Assembly (NCBI RefSeq): GCF_023806485.1
Contig: NZ_JAMSLR010000001.1
Location: forward strand, 1 to 64,000
Direction of reading: 5' to 3'
DNA length: 64,000 nt
Source of the DNA: Thermalbibacter longus
GTDB lineage: Bacteria; Chloroflexota; Chloroflexia; Thermomicrobiales; Thermomicrobiaceae
Below are positions 44,460 through 51,048 of this stretch, piece by piece; position 1 is the stretch's first letter; the number at the start of each line of letters is the position of its first letter. The notes beneath the pieces are model-generated. The model made no database searches. It was given only the letters and a program-made list of their open reading frames with translations, and was not told the origin of the DNA. The position numbers and the translations under genes are program-made.

Positions 44460-44657
44460 TCAGGCGTGCTGGCATAGCCATGCCAGGAGAAGCATTGCGA
44501 TCACGACGGGGAGCGGCGGAGTGGTCCCGCACGCCGTGAGCGCGAGGAGCGCGACGGCGTTGATTCCGAGCGTCGCGCGGAGGTGGGTGCCGACGGCCTG
44601 GCGTGCCGTCGATGTCCCCTGCGACTTTATCGCGATCATCTCGTCGGATGGGCTCAT
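44460..44657 (-). CDS. Small membrane protein, unknown function
   Basis: A 65-residue protein with a polar N-terminal third and two hydrophobic segments (INAVALLALTACG and LPVVIAMLLLAWLCQHA). Its ATG overlaps the stop of the upstream gene as ATGA, which argues that it is a real, translationally coupled gene. I recognise no family. It is the last gene of the small minus-strand cluster. Confidence 0.5.
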   Translation of the reverse strand: MSPSDEMIAIKSQGTSTARQAVGTHLRATLGINAVALLALTACGTTPPLPVVIAMLLLAWLCQHA

Positions 44658-45106
44658 CGGCCCTTGCCCACGCTCCCGTTACCCAGTGGGATGAAGTAGA
44701 CCCAAATCCCCATGTCGCGGTCCAGCTCTTCCAATCCCAGCGCTGCCGTCGGTACGAGTACCAGCCCTGCCTCGACCTGGGTGCCCACCGGCGGCAGGCG
44801 GTCTGGGTCGGCCAGGCCGCTGTAGGCGCACCAATCCCGGCCCGGTGCCTGGTGGATACAGACCATGGTGAAGGCCTGGTCGCACTGCGCGATGGGTGTG
44901 CCGTCGCGGGCGCAGAACGCGGTCGCGTTCTCGTCGGGGCCGTAGGCGGTTATCTCGCCGCGGACGATCTGGACGGCCTGCTCCGGCCGGCCGAGCAGGG
45001 AGAAGACGAAGGCCGGCCGGAGGAGCGTCGCGCTGAGCGCCGCAACGGCCAGCAGGGCCGCCAGTAGGCTCAGGATCGCGACGATTCGGCAGCGTCCACC
45101 GGCCAT
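44654..45106 (-). CDS. Membrane-anchored protein of unknown function with four cysteines
   Basis: A 150-residue protein with one N-terminal hydrophobic helix (IVAILSLLAALLAVAALSATLL) and an extracytoplasmic domain holding cysteines in AFCARDG, AQCDQ, MVCIHQ and DWCAYSG, a likely disulphide set. No family is recognised. ATG 45106 is chosen because GGAGGAAGGAG lies upstream; GTG 45166, directly abutting the previous stop, is an alternative adding 20 residues. It is coupled to the next small gene through an ATGA overlap. Confidence 0.55.
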   Translation of the reverse strand: MAGGRCRIVAILSLLAALLAVAALSATLLRPAFVFSLLGRPEQAVQIVRGEITAYGPDENATAFCARDGTPIAQCDQAFTMVCIHQAPGRDWCAYSGLADPDRLPPVGTQVEAGLVLVPTAALGLEELDRDMGIWVYFIPLGNGSVGKGR

Positions 45107-45166
45107 TGCGGCGACATCTCCTTCCTCCATCTGCCCGGGTGGCAGGCGCGGAAAGCCGATGTGCAC

Positions 45167-45343
45167 TCAGCGGTGGCGCTGATGGCCCGCTCGACCGACC
45201 AACTTTAACGAGACAGCCAGCGCGATCGCCACCAGCGCGAACCAGATGCCGAGCTCGATCTGACCAACAGCTGGGCCCAGCGCAAGCAGCGATCCGAACG
45301 CAACGATCAAGATCAGTATCACGACTCCGAGTCTCGTCAGCAA
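45167..45343 (-). CDS. Possible 58-residue two-helix membrane protein (TTG start)
   Basis: A frame that opens right after the upstream gene's stop: TTG 45343, stop 45167-45169. It encodes two hydrophobic helices (VVILILIVAFGSLLALGPAV, then IWFALVAIALAVSLKLV) and a basic tail. An AAGGGAG site lies 10 nt before the TTG; a CTG one codon on sits 3 nt after AGGAG. The stop abuts a GTG start option of the next gene. The sequence is far too hydrophobic and tidy for random DNA, but there is no ATG and no recognised family. Confidence 0.4.
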   Translation of the reverse strand: MLTRLGVVILILIVAFGSLLALGPAVGQIELGIWFALVAIALAVSLKLVGRAGHQRHR

Positions 45344-45346
45344 CTC

Positions 45347-46024
45347 CTAATAACTCCCTTCGTATGTATAACGTCCGTCACCGTACACATAGATCTTGCT
45401 CCACGGATATGCATTGGCATAACAGCCGTAGCGCACGACGCAGTACTCTAAATGGCGTTGCATGTGAGACCAAGCCTGCCATGATCCAGGGCTGCTAGCT
45501 TGGTTGACCACCAGTTCCCGGACGTAGATCACTGAGTTCACGTCAGTGACGTAATCATACCGGTTCTGCCATCCAGTAACTACGGAGCCGTTGCCACACC
45601 ATGCCACATAGTGATGCCACTTGTACAGGCTAAAGCCAAGCAGACTGAACCGTTGGAACCAGACGTCAGCCCACCAGCATCCGGCAGCGCCGACCGCCAT
45701 GGGTTGAATCAGTACTCCATCGCGCGCTCCGATCTCGACGGGCCGCGTCGGGTCGGGAACCTGCGAGGCTATACCCGGACGGCTGCGGATCAGCTGCAAA
45801 TCCTCGGCGGTATATGTGCCGCGAGCGATACGATCCAAGGCGGCTGCAATCTCGGGATCTCTACCATTTGACGCGGCTGACGCCGGCACGACGCCGTTCA
45901 TCGACAACGCTGTCGAGATGAGGACAGCAACTATGAGGACACGTATGCCACGTTTTACTGGTGCCCAGTCCATTTTAAACGAGAGGGGCAGTCGCCGGCG
46001 CCGATTGCGCAAATGGCGAATCAT
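45347..46024 (-). CDS. Secreted protein of unknown function
   Basis: A 225-residue protein with a long basic N-terminus followed by a signal segment (IRVLIVAVLISTALSMNGVV, cleavage after ASA near residue 51). The mature domain of about 174 residues is rich in Trp, Tyr and Cys (GAAGCWWADVWFQRFSLLG, YCVVRYGCYANAYPW). The style recalls actinobacterial exported proteins; no family is recognised. AAGGAG lies 6-7 nt before the ATG. The gene is visibly AT-richer than its surroundings, which suggests recent acquisition. Confidence 0.65.
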   Translation of the reverse strand: MIRHLRNRRRRLPLSFKMDWAPVKRGIRVLIVAVLISTALSMNGVVPASAASNGRDPEIAAALDRIARGTYTAEDLQLIRSRPGIASQVPDPTRPVEIGARDGVLIQPMAVGAAGCWWADVWFQRFSLLGFSLYKWHHYVAWCGNGSVVTGWQNRYDYVTDVNSVIYVRELVVNQASSPGSWQAWSHMQRHLEYCVVRYGCYANAYPWSKIYVYGDGRYTYEGSY

Positions 46025-46132
46025 TGCTATCTCCTTCGGATAATAGCCTAACTCCCGCCTATGTTGAAACGGATGTCTACCTCCCTTCTATCGAGCATCG
46101 CCACACGTCTCGGACAACGTCTTGTTCCCAGC

Positions 46133-46396
46133 CTAGCTCGCATGCTTGGTGATGTTCTCTCCCCAGGGCTGGGCAATTTTCTCCCCAGGCTGCAAGCGAA
46201 GCCCTCGCCGGGCAGTCGTCCTCACAGACAGCTCGTCGCGTTGTCGGCAATCGGATCGCGGACGAGAAGTCGAACGAACCGACATGTCGAACGGCACAGG
46301 CGTGATCCAGAACACGGCGATGCTATAGGCAATCGCCAAGATGAGGACGATTAGCACCACCAAAAACCACCTCGGCCGCGCCAGTCGATTCTTCAG
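46133..46396 (-). CDS. Possible 87-residue membrane protein with CTG start
   Basis: The frame has no ATG/GTG near its plausible start, but CTG 46396 lies 5 nt after a perfect AAAGGAG. It would give KNRLARPRW then the helix FLVVLIVLILAIAYSIAVFW (about 10-29) and a short polar external tail to a TAG. It starts 50 nt after the stop of the next upstream gene. The combination of ribosome site, positively charged head and single membrane helix supports a real product; the long upstream extension of the frame overlaps another gene and looks non-coding. Confidence 0.4.
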   Translation of the reverse strand: MKNRLARPRWFLVVLIVLILAIAYSIAVFWITPVPFDMSVRSTSRPRSDCRQRDELSVRTTARRGLRLQPGEKIAQPWGENITKHAS

Positions 46397-46445
46397 CCGT
46401 GCTCCTTTGTGCCCCGGTAGCTGCCATCCCCGTTTCCATCGCGCA

Positions 46446-47111
46446 TTAGCCCCCGTCCGGGCGTGGTGATCCCGGATCGAGGGGCACCGCAAGCTCGAGT
46501 CCGATCGCCTTCGCGAGCTGGTCGGACAAGAACTGAGCATCGTGGACTTCGCGAGGGCTGAGGTAGAGGCCGGTGGTGACCTCAGCGCAGGAGTCTCCTT
46601 CGCAGAACATCTCCTGGGGTGCTCGCCGGATGGATGTATCCCCGAAAATCCTGGCGAGTTCAGGTTCGGGCAGGATGTAGACGAAGACTCGGAACCGGCT
46701 AGGGACGTCTACCCGCTGCACTACCGGGTCGCCGGTCGGCTTCCCACCTTTGACAGAGACACCCGGTTCCAGCAGGTACGGTTTCCCGGGACAGCCGATC
46801 TCCACGACCGGCGCATTCTGGGCTAATCCGGCCGGCCGCCAGTGCGGATGCTGCGTGAGCGTGGCCAGCGCAGCATCCATCCGCTGGCGAGCGACCTCCA
46901 GGTCAACGGTAGCCGCGGCAACCGGCTCGACACACAGCGCCAGGCGATCTCGGTTCGTCGTAAGCAGCAGTCCATCGGTGAAGTGGACGCTCTGAGCCCG
47001 AAGCATGCGAGGAACGAGCTCGCGGGCGAGTACCCCGATTGCCAGGATGAGCACGAGCAATATGCCGGTGCGTAGTTGCCACGGAAGACAGCGCATTCCG
47101 ATTCTTTTCAT
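46446..47111 (-). CDS. Membrane-anchored secreted protein of unknown function
   Basis: A 221-residue protein with an N-terminal anchor or signal (TGILLVLILAIGVLAREL, about 15-32) and an extracytoplasmic domain of about 185 residues. Segments include VHFTDGLLLTTNRDRLALCV, VVEIGCPGKPYLLEPGV and a C-terminal VTTGLYLSPREVHDAQFLSD. Four cysteines are scattered outside the membrane. No family is recognised. AGGAGGATAGGCC precedes the ATG. It lies 30 nt downstream of the regulator-protease fusion gene in the same direction, so the two are likely co-transcribed. Confidence 0.65.
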   Translation of the reverse strand: MKRIGMRCLPWQLRTGILLVLILAIGVLARELVPRMLRAQSVHFTDGLLLTTNRDRLALCVEPVAAATVDLEVARQRMDAALATLTQHPHWRPAGLAQNAPVVEIGCPGKPYLLEPGVSVKGGKPTGDPVVQRVDVPSRFRVFVYILPEPELARIFGDTSIRRAPQEMFCEGDSCAEVTTGLYLSPREVHDAQFLSDQLAKAIGLELAVPLDPGSPRPDGG

Positions 47112-47140: not shown

Positions 47141-48466
47141 TCACTGAACCAGGTTCTCTGCGATCTTGGTGACCTTGTCCCTATCCGACCAGCTCGGCCA
47201 CTCGCGATCGGTGCAACCATATACCCCCGAGTGCATGACGCTGTCGGCGCACTGTCCCCACCAGTCGGGGTCTTTCAGCCCTAGCACGTGACCGGTTTCG
47301 TGGTTGATGGTGTGGTGATACCAGAACGTTCCGCTGGTGAGGTGCGAGGTCTTGAAGCGCACGTAGGCCCACCGATAGTCCGTGTGACCGGTGTTCGGAT
47401 TGTAAGCCGGTTGTTCTTTCCAGGAGCAACTCAAGCCGTCGCATCCGGAACTGCGCGCCCAGTATTCCACTTCGATATCACGCGGCAGCAGGCCGCGCGC
47501 GTAGGCCGCCGCTACCACGTCCGCGCGGCGTTCCGCCACTCCCAGCCTGCGGGCGATGGCCCGCAGGTGCGTCCGCACCGTCTCCGGGCTCACACAGAGG
47601 ACGGCGCCGATCTCCCGGTACGTCGGCAGGTCCGCCCGCGCCAGGAGCATTAACACCTCCCGCTCCCGCCGCGAGAAGCCGAGCTCGGCGCACCGCAGCG
47701 CTGCCTCCGCCTGCGCCTGTGTCGTGATATCCACCGCCACGCCGATCGCCCCGCTCACCCTGCCCCGCGCGTCGCGCAGCGGCGCATAGTGGACCTCGAA
47801 GACCGCCTCGCGATAGCACACGCGAGCGGTGAACGCCTCGCCGGCCAGCACCCGGCGCAGGTGATCGGCCAGCTCGGGGATCGCCGTCACCCCGGCCCAC
47901 AGCGACTGCCCGCCCAGCCGCTCCGGGTGCTCGGCGAGGGTGGCCAGACCGGAACCTTCCACGAATGTGATCGTCCCAACCCGGTCGACGGCGAAGAGGA
48001 TGAGCGGCGCATGCTCGAGCACCAGCCGCAGCCGGTCTTCCGGCGCCGGGGTTGCGGGGCCGGCCGCTCGCGGAATGGTCTGCTGTACCCGGTGGGTAAA
48101 GCCGGCGGCCAGCTCGGCGAGCAGGACCACGAGCCGCGGCTGGAGGGGGAGGACTGCTTCAGCAGGGAGACCGGCCAGGAGCTCCTGGCCGAGCGTCGTT
48201 ACGGTCTGCCCGAGCGCCTCCGGCTCGCCGAACCCCAGCTCGACCAGGGCCGCCCCGATCGCCTGCGCCGCCTCGCGATCGAGCGGCTCGGCGAGCAACA
48301 GGGCGATCGCCCGCTCGGTGAGTTCGGCGAGTCGACGGCGCGCTGCCGTCGAATCCGGCATGTCGCTACCCGACCGGAGCGCGCGATGCCAGCGCTCCGC
48401 GATCTCCTGCTGCCGGCGGACGAGGCTCCCCTGCAGGCGCTCCCAGCACGCGTCCTCCGGCTCCAT
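47141..48466 (-). CDS. PAS-LuxR regulator fused to a snapalysin-like metzincin domain
   Basis: A continuous 441-residue frame with two unrelated halves. Residues 1-130 form an RsbR-like helical sensor head, 143-250 a PAS domain (LEHAPLILFAVDRVGTITFV), and 262-325 a LuxR HTH (FSRREREVLMLLARA, ending GVAERRADVVAAAYARGLL). From about 330 the chain becomes Trp/Tyr/Cys-rich and carries HETGHVLGLKD (389-399), the HExxHxxGxxD zinc site of snapalysin-type metzincins, then a Met-turn SVM (409-411). Such proteases are normally secreted; here there is no signal peptide. The protease part (~110 residues) looks shorter than a full enzyme, suggesting a fusion to a remnant or a new architecture. Both halves are certain as families; function is open. 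Confidence 0.85.
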   Translation of the reverse strand: MEPEDACWERLQGSLVRRQQEIAERWHRALRSGSDMPDSTAARRRLAELTERAIALLLAEPLDREAAQAIGAALVELGFGEPEALGQTVTTLGQELLAGLPAEAVLPLQPRLVVLLAELAAGFTHRVQQTIPRAAGPATPAPEDRLRLVLEHAPLILFAVDRVGTITFVEGSGLATLAEHPERLGGQSLWAGVTAIPELADHLRRVLAGEAFTARVCYREAVFEVHYAPLRDARGRVSGAIGVAVDITTQAQAEAALRCAELGFSRREREVLMLLARADLPTYREIGAVLCVSPETVRTHLRAIARRLGVAERRADVVAAAYARGLLPRDIEVEYWARSSGCDGLSCSWKEQPAYNPNTGHTDYRWAYVRFKTSHLTSGTFWYHHTINHETGHVLGLKDPDWWGQCADSVMHSGVYGCTDREWPSWSDRDKVTKIAENLVQ

Positions 48467-48576
48467 CCGCCGATTCCTCCGTACAGAGGCGGTCCAGGTC
48501 TGTTTTCAGTTGCCGCGCGAAGTGGGAGGTCACCCAGGTGAATGATAGTCAGAGATGGCCGGTTCGTCAAACTGCT

Positions 48577-51048
48577 TTACGGGTAACTCCGTAAGACCCG
48601 GCGCTGGTGCCAGGCCAGGAGGAACATCCCGAGCACGGCCAGCGCGCCGGCCGCCGCCGTGGCCAGGCCGGGCACGAGGTACGGCGGCCGGTAGGTGAAG
48701 ACCACCTCGTGGCGACCAGCCGGTACCCAGACCGCCCGGTAGATGCCGTTGGCCAGCGCGACCGGCGCCGGCCGGCCGTCGACCGTCGCTCGCCAGCCGG
48801 GATCGAAGGTGTCGGCCAGCACCAGGTAGGCCGGGGCGGTCGCCTCGGCCGCGATCTCCACCCGGTTTGGCCGGTAGGCGGTGATCTCGACACGACCGCC
48901 GGCGGCCCGGTCGGCCGGCGGCAGCTCGCCGGTCAGGTAGAGCTCCCGGCGCGGGTCGAAGCCCGGCTCACGGATGCGCTGCAGCGCGGTCTCGCGGTCG
49001 GCGATCTCGGCGCTGCCGGCCAGCCAGGCGCGCGGCATGGCCCGCGGGTTCTCCCAGAGCGTCAATCCTTCCGGGGTGGTCAGCAGCAGCCGGAAGCGCG
49101 CGCCTGACGACCCGGCGTCGGCCCGGCTGATCAGGTAGCGCGCGCTCAGGAGGTCGAAGGCGCCGTGATCGCGGTTGTTGCGGGCGAAGTCGAGCACGCC
49201 GGCGTAGCCGGCCGGCTGCATCGGATCGTAGAGCCCGCCGACGTCGTCGAGCCCGACCACGGCGGCCGCGCTCGGCTGCCAGCGAATGGTCAGCGAGATC
49301 ATGCGGATCGGCCCCTCGGCCTCGGCGCGCTCCCGGAGGTAGGCGACGATCTCCGGGTGGCGGAAGTCGACGTTCAGGTCGTCGAGCGTCGGGTTGAAGG
49401 TGGCGTTGGCGCTGAAGAGGTCGACCACGACCAGCCCGAGCGCCAGCAGGCCGGCTGCCGGGCGCGGCAGCCGCGCGCGCTCGACCGCCCAGAGCCAGAG
49501 GAGCGCCAGGCCGAGCAGCAGCGCCAGCAGGTTCAGCCCGTCGAGCGCGATCACCGCCCGCTCGGGCAGCTCCGGCCCGCCGAGGACGACCCGGTAGAAG
49601 AGGGGGATGATCAAGAGGATCAGCGCTCCCAGCGCGATCGCGAGCAGCCGCCGGGCCGACCGCAGGGCGAGGCGCGCGAGGCGGGTCTGCTCGGTTCGCG
49701 TGGCCGCCAGCACGTCGTGCAGGCCGGTGGCGGCCAGCAGCGCGACCGCGAGGTCGACGTACAGCAGCGAGCGGGCCGGGACGCGGAGCAGGTCGGCGAA
49801 GGGGAGGAAGCGGTAGGCCCAGCCGTGTACTGGCGTGTACGGCCCCATCGCGTGCAACAGCGCGACCAGCCCGAGCGTCGCCAGGAACCAGCGCACGGGC
49901 TCGCGGCGGAGCGCCAGGCCCAGCCCGGCCAGGAGCAGCGGGATCACCCCGGCGTAGAACCAGACCTCGCCGCTGGAGAACGGTCCCCAGTAGTCGGTCG
50001 GGTTGCTGCCGAACAGCTTGGGCAGGAGGAAGTGGACGAGCATGATCGGCTGGAGACTGAACTCGGTCGCCTGCTCGTAGGTCAGCCGGCCGGCCCGCAC
50101 CGAGCGCCGGGCCAGCTCCAGCGAGGGCAGGAGCACCGGCATCGCCAGCGCCAGCCCGCTCCCCACCGCCAGACCGGCCCGCAGCGCGTCGGCCAGCGGT
50201 GGCCGGAGCGCGCGCCAGAGCGACGCGACCGAGGAGCGTTGTCCTGGCGCGAGCCCGCCCCGCAGCTCGCGGAAGGCCGCCAGGTGGCGGAGGACCATCC
50301 AGAAGAGCCACCAGGCCGCCGAGGCGGCCAGCGCGTAGAGCACTGTCTGCTGGTGCCCGCCGGTGGCCAGCAGGAAGACGAAGCCAGCGGTGACGGCCGC
50401 CCAGAGCCAGGAGGCGCGCCGCACTGCCTGCGCCAGCCCCAGCCAGATCCAGGGCACCCAAACAGCGGCCGAGAACATCGAGTAGTGGCCCAGGTGGGCT
50501 ACTAGGAAGCCGCTGTAGGGGAAGACGATGCCGGCCACCAGTGCCGGGATCCGGCCGGCGCCGAGCGTGGCCCGCGCCAGCGCGTAGGCGCCGAGGCTGG
50601 CGATCACATAGTGGCTGAGAGCCATCAACTCCAACGTGCTGTACGTGAAGGGGCGGGCCAGGAGGTACGCGATCCAGTTGGGCGGGTAGAGCAGGCCAGC
50701 CTGGTAGTTTGCGAAGTGGGGCATGCCGCTGAAGAGGTGGGGGTTCCAGAGCGGCAGCTCCCCCTCCTGCACCGTGCGGGCGCTGAGAGCGTGCAGGGGG
50801 AAGAAGAAGGAGTTGAGGTCGCCGCCGCCCTTCGGGACTTGCGCTGGAGTGAGCAGGGGGCGCCAGAAGAATAGGACGTGCGCTAGCAGGAGCCCGCCGA
50901 GCGCGGCCAGCTCGCCGGCCAGCCACGGCCAGCGCCGCCGGAGCGGGCCAGCGGCGAGCAGCAACCCCACAGCCCACAGCCCGGCCAGTGCCGGCAGGGC
51001 CCAGAGCGGGATCAGCCCGCTCGTCCGAACCGCCAGCTCCGGGGGCAA
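48577..51048 (-). CDS. YfhO-family multispanning membrane protein
   Basis: An 823-residue membrane protein with about 12-13 transmembrane helices and a large C-terminal extracytoplasmic domain. YfhO-like landmarks are GGGDLNSFFFPLHALSARTV with GELPLWNPHLFSGMP near the N-terminus, and a C-terminal domain ending with VVFTYRPPYLVPGLATAAAG before the last helix. The family belongs to the GT-C-like lipid-linked glycosyltransferases; in Firmicutes YfhO glycosylates lipoteichoic acid. The sugar and acceptor here are unknown. It is transcribed with ychF, 18 nt apart. Confidence 0.88.
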   Translation of the reverse strand: MPPELAVRTSGLIPLWALPALAGLWAVGLLLAAGPLRRRWPWLAGELAALGGLLLAHVLFFWRPLLTPAQVPKGGGDLNSFFFPLHALSARTVQEGELPLWNPHLFSGMPHFANYQAGLLYPPNWIAYLLARPFTYSTLELMALSHYVIASLGAYALARATLGAGRIPALVAGIVFPYSGFLVAHLGHYSMFSAAVWVPWIWLGLAQAVRRASWLWAAVTAGFVFLLATGGHQQTVLYALAASAAWWLFWMVLRHLAAFRELRGGLAPGQRSSVASLWRALRPPLADALRAGLAVGSGLALAMPVLLPSLELARRSVRAGRLTYEQATEFSLQPIMLVHFLLPKLFGSNPTDYWGPFSSGEVWFYAGVIPLLLAGLGLALRREPVRWFLATLGLVALLHAMGPYTPVHGWAYRFLPFADLLRVPARSLLYVDLAVALLAATGLHDVLAATRTEQTRLARLALRSARRLLAIALGALILLIIPLFYRVVLGGPELPERAVIALDGLNLLALLLGLALLWLWAVERARLPRPAAGLLALGLVVVDLFSANATFNPTLDDLNVDFRHPEIVAYLRERAEAEGPIRMISLTIRWQPSAAAVVGLDDVGGLYDPMQPAGYAGVLDFARNNRDHGAFDLLSARYLISRADAGSSGARFRLLLTTPEGLTLWENPRAMPRAWLAGSAEIADRETALQRIREPGFDPRRELYLTGELPPADRAAGGRVEITAYRPNRVEIAAEATAPAYLVLADTFDPGWRATVDGRPAPVALANGIYRAVWVPAGRHEVVFTYRPPYLVPGLATAAAGALAVLGMFLLAWHQRRVLRSYP

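Follow-up and report, generated by a model that had tools for sequence, protein, structure and literature searches.

A putative genomic island of Thermalbibacter longus carrying a truncated snapalysin-like protease and an exported protein with a small membrane partner

Two kinds of described exported proteins are among those closest to the products of the locus reported here. One comprises the Asp-zincin proteases, whose motif is defined as HExxHxxGxxD in PMC3890501. The other is Zea, a secreted hexameric RNA-binding protein of Listeria (PMC6907008), whose operon responds to cell-wall stress and carries FtsW2 and RodA3 (PMC6686043). We analysed a 64,000-nt stretch of Thermalbibacter longus (positions 1 to 64,000 of contig NZ_JAMSLR010000001.1, hereafter the window), in which six consecutive minus-strand frames follow a regulator–protease fusion. 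The analysis defined two gene pairs that recur in Chloroflexota: in one, a snapalysin-like exoprotease is accompanied by a membrane-anchored protein; in the other, an exported beta-domain protein has a small membrane protein as its partner. Named by none of the family libraries used, these pairs are not visible from the window sequence alone, and neither is described in the titles and abstracts retrieved by literature searches on Thermomicrobium bacteriocins and on snapalysin in Chloroflexi or in gene clusters.

The initial annotation had taken the six frames for a horizontally acquired secretion or membrane module of small proteins without a recognisable family. All six frames were found at its coordinates (Table 1), each with one or two hydrophobic stretches. 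None of them received an assignment from Pfam, NCBIfam, PHROGs or PADLOC (the 135-aa frame was scanned with Pfam only), and the statement on families is correct for these four libraries. The notion of a secretion module was not borne out: the run contains only exported or membrane-anchored proteins, no machinery gene and, according to Pfam and NCBIfam, no ATPase, channel or transporter domain in any frame. Nor did PADLOC, PHROGs, Pfam or NCBIfam yield a match that would indicate a secretion or defence system.

The frames had also been described as very closely spaced. This holds for the 65-aa frame and p170, which overlap by 4 nt (ATGA), for p170 and p58, which abut (TGA-GTG), and for p58 and p225, which lie 3 nt apart, but p221 and p225 are separated by 421 nt. 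The frames do not make up one tight operon, and there may be two transcripts, because a promoter-like site stands directly before p225. Two of the frames are doubtful as genes. The 135-aa frame starts 95 nt inside p221 and ends 108 nt before p225; behind p221 it lacks a separate start codon of the usual kind, and no relative of it was found. The 65-aa frame probably does not represent a gene, because its start lies in older DNA, in a patch that is intergenic in two same-genus relatives, and its remainder is not conserved as a protein in same-genus genomes. The final ~11 codons of p170 sit in host DNA past the insertion edge (44687), and a weak relative of this protein was found in genome G136 (36% over ~62 aa, E 4e-6).

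Table 1. Features of the locus in window coordinates, with the evidence for each
Feature	Position	Strand	Basis
Inserted segment	44688..48596	.	Empty site in L123 and L124 (blastn)
65-aa frame	44460..44657	-	Outside the insert; probably not a gene
p170, anchored exported protein (predicted)	44654..45166	-	One hydrophobic segment
p58, small protein with two hydrophobic segments, p225 partner	45167..45343	-	TTG start, 3 nt after p225
p225, exported protein (predicted)	45347..46024	-	Alignment A3 and AlphaFold2 model
Promoter-like site before p225, TCAACA-16-TATTAT	46040..46067	-	Consensus scan, 9/12
135-aa frame overlapping p221	46133..46540	-	One hydrophobic segment; doubtful gene
p221, membrane-anchored extracytoplasmic protease companion	46446..47111	-	Hydrophobic segment at residues 15-33; homologues downstream of proteases
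PAS-LuxR regulator with C-terminal part of a snapalysin-like protease, in-frame fusion, 441 aa	47141..48466	-	Pfam domains and alignment with relatives
Zinc motif HETGHVLGLKD (HExxHxxGxxD)	47270..47302	-	Sequence; invariant in the nine-member alignment A2
Promoter-like site before the regulator gene, TTGACG-17-TATCAT	48542..48570	-	Consensus scan, 10/12

The inserted segment and its surroundings

Comparison of the neighbourhood with related genomes revealed an empty site in two same-genus genomes (G002, G003), in which blastn found no counterpart to an extra segment of ~3.9 kb. This island would have been inserted directly behind a YfhO-like membrane-protein gene (48577-51048), with two extracytoplasmic modules aboard. 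The YfhO-like gene has ~90% DNA identity to the same-genus copies. In both relatives (L123, L124) it is followed by 127 bp and then by a 55-nt patch, while in the window the same points lie 3.9 kb apart. The patch corresponds to window positions 44633-44687, with identities of 85 and 91% to the two relatives; on the YfhO side, similarity reaches 48597. The empty site thus offers a clean before/after comparison for the insertion. The YfhO-like product ends in RRVLRSYP in the window (48577-48600) and in RRG in its same-genus relatives, as would be expected if the insertion altered the final codons. A target-site duplication was not seen, the edge stretches compared having no common word of at least 8 nt.

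Beyond the patch, the window and both relatives diverge again, which indicates further rearrangement; judging by this divergence, the neighbourhood is rearranged outside the island as well. Past the patch, we observed a glyoxalase-like gene in both relatives, and HSP20- and BON-like genes in the window (names by sequence reading). A stretch of ~30 nt within the 65-aa frame (44467-44502) is similar to the YfhO-like gene at its 3' end (about 48610-48640; 79%, E 0.01), possibly by chance.

Taken by itself, the comparison is compatible both with a gain here and with a loss in the two relatives. Gain is favoured because of the atypical composition and the patchy distribution. The AT-rich centre noticed earlier was confirmed, GC being 0.51-0.56 at 45.2-45.7 and 45.9-46.2 kb versus 0.666 in the window. 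The third-position GC of p225 is 0.62, whereas the regulator part, p170 and the flanking genes have values of 0.81-0.94. Of the 158 genomes examined in the class, 7 have p221 homologues and 7 have p225 homologues, and the three congeners have neither. With the closest relative of the protease found in another family of the phylum, the horizontal acquisition proposed at the outset is well supported; the island is real and was most likely acquired.

Several vehicles and elements were also considered. Phage cargo was rejected: no relative of p225 or p221 was found in viral contigs, and the phage records contained none for a p225 homologue. A plasmid origin was rejected as well, the plasmid scans having yielded only the Thermomicrobium roseum megaplasmid for p225 and none for p221. 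Rfam gave no match to an RNA element within 42.5-49.0 kb.

The p225–p58 pair

The p225 protein has an N-terminal signal or anchor (residues ~29-50), a short helical part and a C-terminal beta-domain (residues 113-225) with four conserved cysteines (A3). It is intact over its full length, keeps the family-invariant residues and has a plausible ribosome-binding site. Relatives were found in genomes G012, G019 (HRbin27), G011, G018, G030, G097, G262, G225, G274, G276, G269, G410 and G248, on the T. roseum megaplasmid and in a Nostocoides genome; a contig scan with a narrow p225 alignment gave four loci. Many copies are broken (G012, G011, G018, the own-genome copy and the T. roseum megaplasmid). 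The own-genome copy, a second p225-like gene at about 478.0-478.5 kb of contig 1 (G000; L019, L112), has two stops and is followed by a 100-aa membrane-protein frame. In the Thermomicrobium group (L024, L026, L084), the p225-like genes come after those for an anchored protein of ~250 aa and for a small exported protein that contains cysteine, which makes another run of small exported proteins.

A small membrane-protein frame stands directly behind p225 in 14 of 18 loci (window included) versus 18 of 173 control genes (10% background), a control that allows for the chance occurrence of short hydrophobic frames. With composition correction off, p58 and the frame that follows the p225 homologue of G012 were 49% identical over 61 residues. 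The comparison of p58 with its counterparts gave an E value of 3e-11 without the correction and no match below 0.01 with it; the likeness is one of position and hydrophobicity more than of sequence. In one family (G269, G410, G248), the p225 domain and the membrane segments are joined in a single chain of ~543 aa and occur there in duplicate, which argues for a physical association.

LuxR-type genes occur within 1.5 kb at six loci outside the window against 0.42 expected from genome-wide GerE counts, namely at three p225 loci (0.26 expected) and three p221 loci (0.16 expected); the significance is indicative only, since the association was spotted before counting and the neighbour-finding HMM was built from most of the same genes. 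These LuxR neighbours differ in type, side and orientation. In G097, homologues of p221 and p225 lie 2.0 kb apart (chance about 0.002). The above-chance presence of LuxR genes near both modules lends statistical support to a possible link with LuxR-type control, as suggested earlier for the regulator at the head of the run.

Because the pair is recurrent and a fused version exists, p58 would be expected to tether or stabilise p225 at the membrane. The p225 protein would be exported, with its cysteine-bonded beta-domain outside the membrane, and may serve as a binding protein held at the surface, with LuxR-type regulators switching it on. The pair is probably a membrane-tethered exoprotein and, being intact, most likely represents the working part of the island.

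An antagonism pair, in which p225 would be a bacteriocin-like secreted protein and its membrane partner would confer immunity, would also fit the two-gene layout, the high variability of the small membrane protein and the LuxR genes adjoining in G097 (two loci) and G274. The many broken copies resemble those of fast-turnover accessory genes. However, the fusion and duplication of both parts in one family would be odd for a toxin and its immunity protein. No exporter gene is present, and neither p225 nor its homologue matched a bacteriocin family of Pfam or NCBIfam, which hold the described kinds. We therefore regard antagonism as a minority possibility and prefer the membrane-tethered exoprotein.

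The regulator–protease fusion and p221

The regulator part of the fusion contains both PAS and LuxR domains (PAS_4, 47.0 bits with a cut-off of 23.1; GerE, 31.4 bits with a cut-off of 23.5). A single weak hit between the regulator HTH and a CARF model was disregarded. Residues 331-438 of the fusion share 54% identity with residues 121-226 of an intact secreted protease in G486, which has 233 aa and a hydrophobic N-terminus. The protease part begins at residue 121 of this relative, lacks a hydrophobic N-terminus and is not a complete domain; from this truncation point, the signal peptide and the first ~120 residues are gone from the window copy. What remains keeps all family-invariant residues. 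The H, E, H, G and D residues of the zinc motif are kept in all nine family members of A2, the window copy among them, in agreement with an Asp-zincin. The A2 profile matched snapalysin 1c7k with an E value of 1.7e-5 (1c7k and 4hx3 both at about 2e-5); the snapalysin cut-offs of Pfam and NCBIfam were not reached (PF02031, 15.6 vs 25 bits; NF033628, 18.1 vs 300 bits).

The fusion described earlier at the head of the run stands insofar as no stop interrupts the frame at the junction, but the protease in it lacks its N-terminal portion. A rearrangement in which the protease signal peptide was lost accounts for it better than a designed sensor-effector. Joined in frame to the PAS-LuxR regulator without the signal peptide and the first ~120 residues, the protease would stay inside the cell and most likely has no activity as an exoprotease. 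On these grounds, the protease–p221 module looks disabled in that capacity. The retained invariant residues imply that the event may be recent, or that a cytoplasmic role is possible.

Homologues of p221 lie directly 3' of snapalysin-like proteases at 11 other loci (two in G137, three in G096, two in G095 and one each in G069, G486, G208 and G468); more distant p221-like proteins are present also without such a protease. One distant relative (L099) carries a PepSY domain (24.6 bits, cut-off 24.0) followed by the p221 domain in one chain. The window p221 is intact over its full length, with the family-invariant residues kept and a plausible ribosome-binding site. Because of the close adjacency, the anchoring and the PepSY fusion of the distant relative, p221 would probably bind and restrain or mature the protease at the cell surface, and we infer a surface-anchored regulator or maturation partner. 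In G137 and G131 (L047, L048, L049, L050), p221 is followed by a secreted protein whose LTIYGDVP-like start is conserved; two copies of it end in MPQTGAGGMA, resembling a sortase signal.

The truncation and fusion of the protease, the two doubtful frames and the many broken p225 copies elsewhere, including the own-genome copy with its two stops, could suggest that the whole run is decaying cargo of no present function, its frames being remnants. The full-length p221 and p225, with their invariant residues and plausible ribosome-binding sites, speak against this, and general decay appears rather unlikely.

Fold of p225 and relation to known systems

The AlphaFold2 model of p225 had a mean pLDDT of 60, with eight strands in the beta-domain at about 60-80. 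Its top VIA-align match was Zea (Lmo2686, PDB 4k15; Z 7.6, 93 aligned, rmsd 3.6), followed by a row at 4.5, although a Z value below 8 may mean merely a common strand arrangement. Zea was also the best Foldseek match (E 0.012). The model of the HRbin27 homologue (pLDDT 70) gave 3c5p first (Z 7.0, 104 aligned, rmsd 3.0) and Zea second (Z 6.7, 89 aligned, rmsd 3.5), the next row being 5.6; 4k15 was absent among the 50 Foldseek rows listed for it. Foldseek found nothing under E 0.001 for either model, and the two are not independent tests, having been built from the same four sequences. The A3 profile, searched against the PDB sequences up to E 10, did not retrieve 4k15. The apparent resemblance between p225 and Zea is weak and serves as a lead.

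On this lead, the p225–p58 module would be a Zea-like protein that is secreted, forms rings and binds RNA outside the cell. Zea is itself a secreted hexamer that binds RNA (PMC6907008), and it ranked first for one model and second for the other. Against this stand the Z values and the mean pLDDT of the models, the Foldseek results and the missing sequence match. The small membrane partner suggests tethering instead of release, and a common fold proves no function; we consider such a role improbable. It is highly improbable that the regulator–protease fusion works in the cytoplasm, cutting itself or a partner and controlling the downstream genes: the open frame, the retained HExxHxxGxxD and the recurrent LuxR genes near both modules would allow it, but the first half of the protease is absent, conserved cysteines suggest an oxidised extracellular fold, and no second such fusion was seen among the matches listed.

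On balance, we favour a horizontally acquired island in which a snapalysin-like protease with its p221 companion would be disabled, while p225 and p58 would form a working surface-held pair switched by LuxR-type regulators. A further-reaching version, which we offer as speculative, is that p225 and its small membrane partner constitute an undescribed mobile, LuxR-associated and surface-held family of Chloroflexota (with an actinobacterial outlier), which would have the Zea fold and act extracellularly, for example by binding nucleic acid or a competitor surface. The protease–p221 pair would then be a second undescribed protease–regulator pair travelling along.

Among the known systems, snapalysin (peptidase family M7, an Asp-zincin) shares the HExxHxxGxxD motif with the window protease, and the intact relatives of the latter are likewise small exported proteins. 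These relatives differ from snapalysin in an added N-terminal part of ~120 residues and in their pairing with p221, whereas in the window copy a regulator is fused to a protease that has lost its signal peptide and N-terminal half. Proteins with the PepSY domain (peptidase propeptide and YpeB) are linked to p221 through L099, which has both domains, although p221 itself gave no PepSY match. BAS0735 of Bacillus (PDB 3c5p), the top match of the HRbin27 model, is tied there with Zea and is absent from the listed rows of the p225 model. Zea is exported, as is predicted for p225, and its strands are arranged similarly to those of the predicted p225 beta-domain (Z 7.6 and 6.7); what sets p225 apart is that it has four conserved cysteines, is helical in its N-terminal part and is paired with a small membrane protein.
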